Positions 15,829 through 45,705 of a DNA stretch of 57,872 nucleotides are shown here, piece after piece. This stretch comes from a virus. Each line of letters starts with the position of its first letter. The first letter of the stretch is position 1. The DNA lies in IMG/VR virus record IMGVR_UViG_3300032315_000356, positions 1-57,872 of that record, one strand, 5' to 3'. The notes under the pieces were generated by a model. The model was not told the origin of the DNA. It did no database searches and saw only the letters and a list, made by a program, of their open reading frames with translations. A program made the position numbers and the translations under genes.

Positions 15829-15860
15829 AAATTAGGGGGCATTTGCCCCCTAATTTTTTA
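15829..15860 (+). terminator. Rho-independent terminator
   Basis: A perfect stem of AATTAGGGGGCA with its complement (15830-15841 and 15844-15855) is followed by a T run. It ends the ATPase transcript just before the next promoter. Confidence 0.92.
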
Positions 15861-40605: not shown

Positions 40606-42327
40606 ATGAGCCAAATAAACACAAACGGAATCAACGTAAACTATCCGGTACCGGGACAGAACAACAGTTCTCAACCATTCCGTGATAATTTTGCTGCGAT
40701 CAGAACAAATATCAATACGGCTGCAACTGAACTTACTGACCTAGAGTCTAAAGTCGTAGTTAAAGCAGCACTTAACAATACCACTTTGAATAACGATATG
40801 GCAAATACATTGATTAGTAATGCCTCAACACGTGGATTCAGGGCAACAACTTATAATCTAGGAAACGCACTATCCGGAACGATCCTAGTAGATGTGAATC
40901 GTGCTGATGTACAATATGGTGCAGTGACTGGAAATACTACTTTACAATTCGGCGGCTGGGCTCCTACTAATACCGAGAGCAATGTTGTACTAAGACTAAC
41001 AATATCTAACACTGCCGCTGTTATTTCATTACCAAGTGCATGTGTCTCGTCCAATAATAATTATGGAGTGACTATACTTGAAAATTATGCCAACATTGGC
41101 AACACTGCTACGATTACTGCTCCTGCCAATGTTGGCATCATGGAATATACATTCAGTTCGTTAGATTGCGGAAATACTATCACAGTTTCCCCGGTAAATA
41201 GAGCGTTTCAGACTGCTCAAATTATTACTCGTGACCCGCCTCCCACTGGATTGATGGGAGACGTTAACGGTGATGTTGCAGTAAGTGCCTCAGTTAGTCA
41301 AATACGGGTAACTCAAACTGCTAATGTCCCTACTGTCATAACTGCAAACACTTTTACCTCTACCGGAAGTACCATCGTTGGTACTGAACTTACTATAGGT
41401 ACACTAGCTACTGGCAATGTGAGTATAGGAATGATACTGTCAGGGGCAGCAGCTAATACATACATCACTGGATATACCTCTGGGTCAGGGTCAGGCTCTA
41501 AGTGGGTAGTGAATCAGAGCCAGTCTGTAAGTTCCGGGCCAATCGACGGCAAGACGGGAATCTATGTGGATGCGGTGACCAATAACCCCGTTCTTTACGT
41601 AGGAGTGCAAACATCCGGAGTTGTGCAAGAAGGCATGATTCTTTCAGGATCCGGAGTCACTGCAAATACTTGGATAGTGCAGAATCTTGCTGGATCCGGA
41701 TCGGGTTCTTTATGGAGAGTCAGCACTTCTCAGTGGGCGACACCTACAACTATAAACGGGGCAATCGATGTGTTGACGGTTGCTAATACATCTGGTTTCT
41801 ATAGAGACATGCCATTAACATTTACCGGAAATACGTTTGGTGGAGCAAATCTTCTTCCTGGAAATACATATTATATTAAAGAAGTTGCAGATTCCAACTC
41901 AATAACCATCTCCTCTACACCAAGCGGCGGTATGGTAGTACTCGCTAATGCTTCGGGTAATATGTATCTCAATCCCGGATCATATCTATATGTTGCGACT
42001 AATAAATATAACTCAACTACATATGCTAGACAGACTACTAATACAACTGCAACTACTAATCTGATTACACTAGAAAACACAACCTACCTAGAAGTAAACT
42101 CACCTATCATCTTTACTGGCTCTACGTTCGGCGGACTAGAAGGAAATGTAGTTTATTATGTCAAGTCTAACGATTTGGGTAATAGTAAACTTACAGTTAG
42201 CCGTACTAGAGTTAATGGAATTGCCGGACCTGAAGTACTATTGACCACTGCGAACGGAAATTGCGTTGCAACTTGTTATACCGGCGGCAATGATATCTGG
42301 AAACGCATTAGCCTGACAGCTTGGTAA
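40606..42327 (+). CDS. Virion structural protein with repeated modules
   Basis: A 573-residue protein. The N-terminus (SQINTNGINVNYPVPGQNN, then SSQPFRDNFAAIRTNI) is a type known from structural proteins of T4-like marine phages. The middle has two copies of a module with MILSG and GSGSGSxWxV (also in the 7634 product). The C-terminal part has two copies of an FTGxTFGG...YYxK module (also in 34615 and 38060). A late-type octamer lies upstream. It is probably a tail or head surface component. Confidence 0.78.
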   Translation: MSQINTNGINVNYPVPGQNNSSQPFRDNFAAIRTNINTAATELTDLESKVVVKAALNNTTLNNDMANTLISNASTRGFRATTYNLGNALSGTILVDVNRADVQYGAVTGNTTLQFGGWAPTNTESNVVLRLTISNTAAVISLPSACVSSNNNYGVTILENYANIGNTATITAPANVGIMEYTFSSLDCGNTITVSPVNRAFQTAQIITRDPPPTGLMGDVNGDVAVSASVSQIRVTQTANVPTVITANTFTSTGSTIVGTELTIGTLATGNVSIGMILSGAAANTYITGYTSGSGSGSKWVVNQSQSVSSGPIDGKTGIYVDAVTNNPVLYVGVQTSGVVQEGMILSGSGVTANTWIVQNLAGSGSGSLWRVSTSQWATPTTINGAIDVLTVANTSGFYRDMPLTFTGNTFGGANLLPGNTYYIKEVADSNSITISSTPSGGMVVLANASGNMYLNPGSYLYVATNKYNSTTYARQTTNTTATTNLITLENTTYLEVNSPIIFTGSTFGGLEGNVVYYVKSNDLGNSKLTVSRTRVNGIAGPEVLLTTANGNCVATCYTGGNDIWKRISLTAW

Positions 42328-43117: not shown

Positions 43118-43146
43118 TTGACAGTTAGCGGTAAATCATGTATTGT
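43118..43146 (+). promoter_or_regulatory. Early promoter, probably leaderless transcript (DnaE-like fragment)
   Basis: TTGACA at 43118, 17-base spacer, TATTGT at 43141. ATG 43153 is 6 bases after the -10; an ATG at 43138 lies within the promoter and would not be transcribed. Confidence 0.75.
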
Positions 43147-43152
43147 TACTAT

Positions 43153-43659
43153 ATGATTACAGATAAATTTGGACAATTTATTTACTCTGAAAATGAGTTA
43201 ATCGATGTGTATATGACTGATCCTGATACTACGCTAAAGCGAGTGTTCGTATCTGAACCAATACAGTTTGATACAAGATTAAACTTGAAAAACACTCCTG
43301 AAATGATTCAGTATCTAACGAGCGACCAATCTATCACTGAGTTTGATCAGGAAAAGCAATCAATTTGGTTCATTCCTGATGATTATAAAAATTTCGACAT
43401 CGCCAAATTCGTTTTAGACCAGTGTTCAACCGAAGCAGAGTTGCAACGTGCTGGCGAAGAATTGCTTCTTTATCAAGAGCGAGACATGTTCATACTCCTT
43501 CGTTACTTAAAGTATCTTGTAGATACGATGAGAGCCAATAACTTAGTGTGGGGCGTGGGACGAGGGTCGAGTGTAGCCAGCTTTGTACTCTTCCTCATCG
43601 GGGTACATAAAATCAATTCTTTATTTTATCAATTAGATGTCAACGAATTTTTAAAATAA
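43153..43659 (+). CDS. DnaE-like (family C) DNA polymerase fragment with GRGS motif
   Basis: From ATG 43153 the product has 168 residues. The last ~70 read like the start of a DnaE palm: a helix ending in NNLVWGVGRGSSVASFVLF (compare VGPGRGSGAGSLVAYAL in E. coli), then GVHKINSLFYQLDVNEFLK (compare ITDLDPLEFDLLFERFLN). In DnaE the next words are PDFDVDF, exactly where the 23463 protein begins. The first ~95 residues show no PHP motif and are unrecognised. Arg in FERFL is replaced by Glu here (VNEFL). It is likely to pair with the 23463 product. Confidence 0.72.
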   Translation: MITDKFGQFIYSENELIDVYMTDPDTTLKRVFVSEPIQFDTRLNLKNTPEMIQYLTSDQSITEFDQEKQSIWFIPDDYKNFDIAKFVLDQCSTEAELQRAGEELLLYQERDMFILLRYLKYLVDTMRANNLVWGVGRGSSVASFVLFLIGVHKINSLFYQLDVNEFLK

Positions 43660-44120: not shown

Positions 44121-44486
44121 ATGGCTGAAAAAGTTAACATAACTAGAACTAAATTAAGCAAACTACATCCAATCAAAGACACTATCTTAGTGTACGGGAT
44201 GGAGTTCAGAGAACGCATCAGTCGGGGAGGACTTATTATCCTTGATGATGATATGAAAAGTGCAGGGATTCGTCCCCGCTGGGCTCAGGTATATGCGGTT
44301 GGCCCAGACGTGCAAGATGTTAAAGTAGGTGATTATATTATGATAGCACACGGTCGCTGGAGTCGCGGACAAACTATCGAAGACGACGAAGGCGAGAAAG
44401 TAATCCGTAAGGTAGATCCAAACGACATTTTATTAGTAAGTGAAGAATATGTCAGTGATTATACGATGACTGACAAAGAATATTAA
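44121..44486 (+). CDS. 31: GroES-like co-chaperonin (T4 gp31-like)
   Basis: A 121-residue protein with the GroES beta-barrel layout: LHPIKDTILV at the start, a mobile-loop region around RERISRGGLIILDDD, then VYAVGPDVQDVKVGDYIMI and a C-terminal NDILLV. T4 gp31 (111 residues) replaces GroES so that GroEL can fold the large capsid protein. The extra GRWSRGQTIEDDEGE segment replaces part of the usual dome loop. It follows the 43705 gene by two bases and probably shares its late transcript. Confidence 0.85.
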   Translation: MAEKVNITRTKLSKLHPIKDTILVYGMEFRERISRGGLIILDDDMKSAGIRPRWAQVYAVGPDVQDVKVGDYIMIAHGRWSRGQTIEDDEGEKVIRKVDPNDILLVSEEYVSDYTMTDKEY

Positions 44487-44497
44487 GGTAACATTAT

Positions 44498-44573
44498 ATC
44501 AGAGATGAGAAATTAAGCCGAGGGGTTGATGGCCCTGGTGACCGTCGACGGCATCGGTTCATCTCTGATTTTT
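44498..44573 (+). ncRNA. Candidate structured RNA or complex terminator
   Basis: A perfect 11-bp closing stem pairs 44498-44508 with 44559-44569 and is followed by Ts. The 50-base interior can fold further: 44517-44521 with 44554-44558, 44523-44525 with 44533-44535, and a CCG(TCGA)CGG hairpin at 44542-44551. This makes a three-way junction on a long stem. It lies between groES-like and clamp-loader genes, where no coding frame is convincing. It may be a terminator with an inserted domain or a small RNA. It does not fit a tRNA. Confidence 0.55.
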
Positions 44574-44597
44574 GTCACATAATGGGTACGACCATTA

Positions 44598-44626
44598 TTG
44601 ACTTTTCAATATACAGCAAGTAGCAT
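44598..44626 (+). promoter_or_regulatory. Early promoter, probably leaderless transcript
   Basis: TTGACT at 44598, 17-base spacer, TAGCAT at 44621. ATG 44633 is 6 bases after the -10. Confidence 0.6.
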
Positions 44627-44632
44627 AGAAAC

Positions 44633-44737
44633 ATGAAGAAGAAAATTATTCCTATGACATTAGGTGCAATCCTGATCTCCGCCTATCTTTTTTATAGGGT
44701 ATATAAAACAATCAATGATATTGACTTTCCGGCGTAA
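44633..44737 (+). CDS. 34-residue single-pass membrane peptide
   Basis: ATG 44633 to TAA 44737. The sequence starts with three Lys, then a ~16-residue hydrophobic stretch (IIPMTLGAILISAYLFY), then a basic and acidic tail. This is the layout of a small inner-membrane peptide with its positive end inside. A dedicated promoter sits right before it. Small phage membrane peptides often alter host functions; the target here is unknown. Confidence 0.5.
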   Translation: MKKKIIPMTLGAILISAYLFYRVYKTINDIDFPA

Positions 44738-44778: not shown

Positions 44779-45705
44779 ATGAAAAACGCCCTTTGGGTTG
44801 AACGCTATCGACCGAGTTCGGTCGATGATTACGTGTTCGTAGATGATCGTCAGCGAGAACAGGTATTGAGTTGGATAGAAGAAGGCTCTATTCCTCACCT
44901 TTTGCTGTCAGGAGATCCGGGTACTGGCAAGACTACACTTGCTAAAGTTCTTATTCATGAACTCGGAATCGAAGAATATGATGTTCTTGAGATCAATGCG
45001 TCACGTGAGAACGGGGTCGATATCGTCAAGGATAAGATTAATAACTTTGCTCAAACCATGCCATTCGGCAAGTTTAAAGTCGTGCTACTAGACGAAGCTG
45101 ACTACACGACTCCCGCGTTCCAAGCGGCGTTGCGTAACGATATGGAAGCATATTCTTCGTCAGTGCGATTCATTCTGACTTGTAACTATGAACACAAGAT
45201 CATCCCTGCATTGCGTGAATCTCGTTGTTTCAAGTTTCACATCGCAAAGCCTGATTTGAATGAGTTTACCGCTCGTGCAGCAACAGTATTGGTTACAGAG
45301 AACGTAGATTTCGATCTAGATACACTCGATACTTACGTCCGTGCTGCATATCCAGATTTGCGTAAGTGTCTCAATCAATTGCAGAACAATTCTAAGTCTG
45401 GTACACTGAAGGCACCCCAGTCTATTGGAAATAGCGAAGATGAGATTCTCGTCGCAGCCACTGATCTGTTCAAGACAGGTAAGATTCTTGAAGGTCGCCA
45501 GCAACTCATGCAATATATCTCTTTGTATCCGTCCAGGGTTGAAGATACGTATCGTTGGATGTACGAAAATATTGATCTTTGGGGTAAGTCTCCTGAACAA
45601 AAAGACGCAGCAATCATCATCATTCGTAACGGATTAGCTAACTTACCACTAGTGGGTATCCCGGAAATTAGTCTGGCAGCTACACTTGCGGAGTTAACAG
45701 CATGA
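44779..45705 (+). CDS. 44: Sliding-clamp loader ATPase, T4 gp44-like
   Basis: The 308-residue AAA+ ATPase (T4 gp44 has 319) loads the sliding clamp onto primed DNA. Walker A is GDPGTGKT (45-52), Walker B is LLDEAD (D105, E106), and the SRC motif with its arginine finger is S148-R149-C150. The start MKNALWVERYRP matches the clamp-loader N-terminus. No strong ribosome site precedes ATG 44779. The small subunit is not adjacent as in T4; a candidate is at 20292. Confidence 0.95.
   Translation: MKNALWVERYRPSSVDDYVFVDDRQREQVLSWIEEGSIPHLLLSGDPGTGKTTLAKVLIHELGIEEYDVLEINASRENGVDIVKDKINNFAQTMPFGKFKVVLLDEADYTTPAFQAALRNDMEAYSSSVRFILTCNYEHKIIPALRESRCFKFHIAKPDLNEFTARAATVLVTENVDFDLDTLDTYVRAAYPDLRKCLNQLQNNSKSGTLKAPQSIGNSEDEILVAATDLFKTGKILEGRQQLMQYISLYPSRVEDTYRWMYENIDLWGKSPEQKDAAIIIIRNGLANLPLVGIPEISLAATLAELTA

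Follow-up and report, generated by a model that had tools for sequence, protein, structure and literature searches.

The stem-loop between a groES-like gene and a clamp loader gene in the window, i.e., the whole 57.9-kb stretch of viral DNA analysed here, is probably an intrinsic terminator or transcript boundary, closing the groES-like unit on its 3' side, just 5' of the predicted promoter for a small ORF and the clamp loader. What is directly seen is the stem, the T-run, the position, a hairpin that recurs at this junction in related phages, and an outer stem (P1) and GAAA hinge that are kept while the interior diverges (Table 1). Judging from this anatomy, the element is likely to terminate transcription. 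Taken alone it would be a terminator of unusual form. Of broader use is the GAAAYAU hairpin of its relatives, which on comparative evidence is a new predicted RNA motif, absent from Rfam and displaying strong and clear compensatory changes.

Table 1. Parts of the junction element and its neighbouring features (window coordinates).
Feature	Position	Strand	Basis
GroES-like co-chaperonin gene, upstream of the element	44121..44486	+	Pfam Cpn10 PF00166, E 1.5e-5; tblastn to phage GroES genes
P1 5' arm, 11-bp outer stem (AUCAGAGAUGA)	44498..44508	+	Sequence; fold; nearly identical P1 in L003
J1/2, one-sided 8-nt 5' bulge GAAAUUAA	44509..44516	+	Minimum-energy fold and comparison with relatives
P2 5' strand GCCGA	44517..44521	+	Minimum-energy fold
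P3 5' strand GUUGAUGG	44525..44532	+	Minimum-energy fold
P3 3' strand CCGUCGAC	44542..44549	+	Minimum-energy fold
P2 3' strand UCGGU, flush with P1	44554..44558	+	Minimum-energy fold
P1 3' arm (UCAUCUCUGAU)	44559..44569	+	Sequence; fold
T-run immediately 3' of the stem	44570..44573	+	Sequence
Predicted sigma-70-like promoter TTGACT-17-TAGCAT, just 3' of the element	44598..44626	+	Consensus match only
Small hydrophobic ORF, likely membrane protein (MKKKIIPMTLGAILISAYLFYRVYKTINDIDFPA)	44633..44737	+	Between element and clamp loader
Clamp loader ATPase gene, downstream of the element	44779..45705	+	AAA, PF00004

The nearest match of the window among cultured phages is found in the clamp loader, with about 52% amino acid identity to the PA5oct-type Pseudomonas jumbo phages, followed by Atu_ph07 and Phosso. 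No match to the groES-like/clamp-loader junction was obtained when cultured phages were searched by DNA similarity. The element is intergenic, its stem being separated by 11 nt from the stop codon of the groES-like gene and by 28 nt from the TTGACT -35-like box. The promoter containing this box is predicted, and consensus matches of this kind are about as numerous in the region as chance would give. The T4-type late promoter TATAAATA occurs three times in the window, which is no more than expected by chance, and none of these are near the element. Relatives encode small ORFs in a position matching that of the small hydrophobic ORF of the window. In the window (44598-44635), as well as in L036 and L058, the small membrane ORF has its start codon about 6 nt past the -10-like box, and its mRNA would be leaderless if the predicted promoter is used. 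A palindrome, TAATGG-GTACGA-CCATTA, is located directly 5' of the -35-like box (44580-44598) and might be an operator; L003 keeps it with one C changed to T.

P1 is a perfect stem of 11 bp (AUCAGAGAUGA/UCAUCUCUGAU) that encloses exactly 50 nt. It is followed by TTTTG, giving five T in a row when the last stem base is included, and five of the eight bases in the TTTTGTCA after the stem are T. The stem, the 50-base interior and the subsequent Ts reported in the first-pass annotation are thus all present. A 96-nt stretch folds at -34.4 kcal/mol, compared to -23.0 ± 3.2 kcal/mol for shuffled versions (z -3.6; 1 of 200 shuffles equally good), and the opposite strand of the element folds less well (-26.2 kcal/mol). 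The stability of the 50-nt interior by itself is not unusual (z -1.2). Perfect stems of at least 11 bp with loops of 20-80 nt are found five times in the window, mostly within genes, while 0.85 would be expected and the maximum in 100 simulations was six. Stem length alone is therefore weak evidence, and the convincing features of the element are its position and the conservation of the stem in relatives.

The interior had been described as a three-way junction. The minimum-energy fold is instead an unbranched rod consisting of P1, an 8-nt 5' bulge, a 5-bp P2, an internal loop and the P3 hairpin; the best branched fold has an energy of -28.8 kcal/mol versus -31.6 kcal/mol for the rod, and the three-way form is thus 2.8 kcal/mol higher. 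Two folds this close, together with a branched alternative that can be drawn in L003 too, might suggest a ligand-sensing RNA or a conditional terminator toggling between rod and three-way fold. Such a sensor, which the first-pass annotation also put forward, is hardly probable at all: the interior shows no conserved pocket between the window and L003, and the element is found at the 3' end of groES and not in a leader, upstream of and not within the transcript of the next promoter. Nor did Rfam provide a riboswitch match. At both gathering and permissive thresholds the window and its relatives gave only tRNAs and no family for the element, and the sub-threshold matches were weak, for instance a plant miRNA stem matching by its stem letters. 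Two other candidates were rejected by eye; a pseudoknot between the bulge and the P3 loop was inconsistent across the hairpin types, and the core letters of the self-cleaving hammerhead and twister ribozymes do not fit.

The element resembles known intrinsic terminators in that a stop codon, a stem and a T-run succeed one another, and in that a plain version recurs in relatives. It differs from them by its structured 50-nt loop and AU-rich stem. It would work like an intrinsic terminator, but as an unusual variant with a loop outside the typical range of 3-8 nt. The stem with its T-run, the z-score of the fold and the position after the last gene of the unit support terminator function, as do the plain GC tetraloop hairpins with T-runs found at the same place in L041, L056, L071, and L073 and the order of features in Phosso described below. 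This reading is weakened by the G-C content of P1 (4 of 11 pairs), by the size of the loop, and by a standard terminator scan, which did not call the element. The other terminator-like hairpins in the window (at 15829, 31222, and 46526) have loops of 3-4 bases, in agreement with the short loops (about 2-7) ascribed to them earlier. In the proposed mechanism P1 and the T-run would end transcripts arriving from groES. The interior would be an enlarged loop that, by folding on itself and stacking on P1, draws the two arms of P1 together, and the exact sequence of this loop would be weakly constrained in the lineage of the window. The terminator would also insulate the downstream gene or promoter. 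The enlarged loop may have expanded from, or share ancestry with, the GAAA-hinged hairpins of the relatives.

About 200 related loci from IMG/VR were compared, retrieved by searches with the clamp loader and groES that gave 80, 55, 80, and 23 overlapping loci; those whose groES is roughly 66% identical or more are here denoted the group of the window. Within this group the junction usually has a hairpin directly 3' of groES, often just 5' of a TTGAC promoter, the box being situated a few bases downstream in many loci. Ten of the loci listed (L041, L056, L057, L071, L073, L078, L026, L004, L060, and L072) have a plain tetraloop hairpin with a GC stem, mostly followed by a T-run, as in L041 (GGGAGUGAGA-GCAA-UCUCACUCCC-AUUUU) and L056 (GAGAGUGAGA-GAAA-UCUCACUCUC-AUUUUUU). 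A structured hairpin is found in the window and in the L003, L005, L042, L065, L058, L036, L079, L093, L096, L216, L217, and L218 types, while the remaining loci have a homing endonuclease gene after groES (L064 and L109) or nothing of the kind. In the cultured Sinorhizobium jumbo phage Phosso the groES stop codon is followed by a GGCCCGG..CCGGGCC hairpin, AUUU and TTGACT; PA5oct, with a gap of 13 nt, and Atu_ph07 have no hairpin directly after groES. The Phosso hairpin and the plain GAAA/GCAA-tetraloop hairpins (L041, L056, L057, L071) thus occupy the same place as the element, with GAAA atop P1 in several and TTGAC downstream in many, but unlike the window they lack an interior P2 and P3. 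This conserved arrangement agrees with the earlier suggestion of a terminator where one unit gives way to the next. The junction offers a natural series ranging from plain hairpin through structured hairpin to homing endonuclease insertion.

A T-run is found at or near the stem end in the window, L003, L005, and several plain relatives, whereas many structured relatives (the L079, L058, L036, and L042 types) have none after P1. It is therefore possible that termination is not a function shared by every junction hairpin. Those of the main structured clade, and the tRNA-site hairpins described below, may have another or an additional role; they may bind a protein, for instance, or protect or define the 3' ends of RNAs. 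In a tree of the loci, obtained by a quick search and with several weak forks, the structured hairpins form two clusters with plain hairpins between them, and four changes are needed. Both a common and a separate origin of the structured hairpins are thus possible.

The motif of the relatives consists of P1, GAAAYAU, a P2 of 4 bp that sits flush against P1 on the 3' side, and a 17-nt unit containing a P3 of 3 bp. Six types, all with interiors of 32 nt, could be aligned without gaps. Among these, 13 of 21 pairs are changed on both sides and 96.8% of the cells are paired, compared to at most 56.3% for slid versions of the alignment. When two types from a second genomic site were included (alignment A5), both-side changes were found in 11 of 16 pairs and 94.5% of the cells were paired (33-55% in slid controls); P2 alone has 100% of its cells paired and three of its four pairs changed on both sides. 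None of 500 shuffles of A5 reached the observed score or the observed pairing, figures that are not to be read as a probability, given that the sequences share ancestry and themselves served to draw the structure. The argument for covariation rests on the size of the distance from the slid versions and on the independent find at the second site. The interior also matters in the main structured clade, since L058 and L093, in spite of 51% divergence at four-fold sites, share 23 of 25 interior letters (92%). No description of the element was found in the literature on branched terminators or on structured RNAs in jumbo phages.

Since the content of the junction turns over between plain hairpin, structured hairpin, homing endonuclease gene, and other ORFs, it might be proposed that the palindrome functions as DNA, for instance as an operator, an origin, or a mobile hairpin insert. 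This is very unlikely. In nine types, the window among them, the stems contain 13 G-U but only two A-C oppositions (p 0.007), and this one-strand excess indicates that RNA from the + strand is the likely functional form. The hairpin is also always in the sense direction relative to the upstream gene or tRNA cluster.

Covariance model R1 gave one additional match, a weak one (23.2 bits; E 0.014 within that genome), which lies between two tRNA-Leu genes on the 360-kb L042 contig. A further example of this site, L264, was retrieved by a pattern from the flank of the tRNA site and not from the hairpin. Its hairpin, GUGUAAAAACGA-GAAAUAU-UCUG-ACGAGGCUCAAGUGGCG-CAGA-UCGUUUUUAUAC, has flanks almost identical to those of the L042 site, while the letters of P1 and P2 differ and the pairing is kept. 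R1, which was built without L264, scores it at 50.4 bits. No T-run follows P1 in the tRNA-site hairpin. A 30-base interior pattern searched against all of IMG/VR was found at ten places, nine at groES junctions plus L264, all on contigs of this phage group. Within the reach of these searches the GAAAYAU RNA is restricted to a single group of uncultured jumbo phages, where it is present at two unrelated genomic sites, and it constitutes a concrete target for asking how such phages mark transcript ends. Inspection by eye revealed no matching 3' arm in three further viral pattern matches from unrelated sequence (L234, L236, and L239), which were discarded. In bacterial genomes the pattern matched eleven times; these matches were treated as chance, none being supported by model R2. 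The pattern RTGAGAAAYA..TCAY alone proves nothing, as equally many control matches were obtained over 15 records. In L254 (791-930), L255, L256, and L264 about 130 nt of non-coding sequence between the tRNA and the hairpin are near-identical, while the next ORF has clearly diverged; this stretch gave no match in Rfam and is possibly a separate non-coding RNA.

The copy in the window has several features of this motif, i.e., the GA/UC end of P1 followed by GAAA (UGA|GAAA), a 3'-flush P2 with a nested P3, and a location at one of the two types of sites, the junction between groES-like and clamp loader genes. Its bulge, GAAAUUAA, is one letter from the GAAACUAA of L096, which R2 detects (24.6 bits), while the other relatives have GAAAYAU. 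The covariance models did not, however, find the copy above chance. R1 gave 9.6 bits (E 5.8), R2 did not include it among its matches, and a search restricted to 121 nt gave a match of 6.3 bits that spans P1 and the GAGAAAU hinge. The interior is also 18 nt longer than that of the motif, and in the tree the cluster of the window is separated from the main structured clade by plain hairpins. Comparison with L003, the 95% relative of the window, which differs at 27% of the four-fold sites (73% identical), shows P1 to be identical at 20 of 22 positions and the GAAA hinge at 8 of 9. The interior is identical at only 29 of 44 (66%), with several indels, and has diverged at about the neutral rate; L003 keeps a P3-like hairpin, while its P2 has at most three pairs. 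Constraint on the interior is thus not visible in this lineage, and the interior may not matter there.

The first-pass annotation had suggested a non-coding RNA and recommended a covariation analysis. The compensatory changes found in the homologues as a group, in a structured RNA at the same place, lend this indirect support. The window and L003, on the other hand, have no compensatory pair in P1, and with an unconserved interior this pair of sequences is uninformative. We regard it as a tentative possibility that the element is a diverged member of the GAAAYAU family, and that the family marks gene-group boundaries (groES/clamp loader and tRNA cluster) in a lineage of jumbo phages, its interior being read by a phage or host factor and its stem letters free to turn over. 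It is somewhat unlikely that the window's own interior, as that of a diverged P1-GAAAYAU-P2-P3 hairpin, has a job at such boundaries, for example in binding a phage or host protein or in processing or protecting RNA 3' ends, even with the covariation in A5, the L058/L093 conservation, and the form retained in L264 counted in its favour. The terminator reading is preferred for the window.

Hairpins that sequester the ribosome binding site (RBS) of the homing endonucleases I-TevI, segB, and mobE are known from T4-type phages (PMC2988022). They share with the element a long stem and a structured loop at a phage gene junction, but differ in that no RBS or start codon was found within the stem of the window. 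In L064 and L109 a hairpin of the sequestering type occupies the place of the element. The endonuclease ORFs (from 1900 in L064 and from 2864 in L109), HNH-like and GIY-YIG-like by eye, are each found behind a hairpin of 19-20 bp where the 3' arm holds the SD/start ATG region and the 5' arm ATAAATA, a layout that is the same as for I-TevI, segB, and mobE. The two hairpins have interior letters in common despite the different endonucleases. In L281 (5139-5254) a tandem of two junction hairpins is found, with P1 imperfect in the first copy and the second, diverged, just 5' of the small ORF; the second copy in this L218/L281 lineage scores 22.6 bits. Elsewhere in the window, a 173-aa ORF (43138-43659) has only a partial match to PF07733, the bacterial DNA polymerase III alpha NTPase domain (E 1.8e-6), and is short for that family, and an inverted repeat that is perfect over 15 bp and has a loop of 22 nt (41087-41138) is found within the long ORF 40606-42327.
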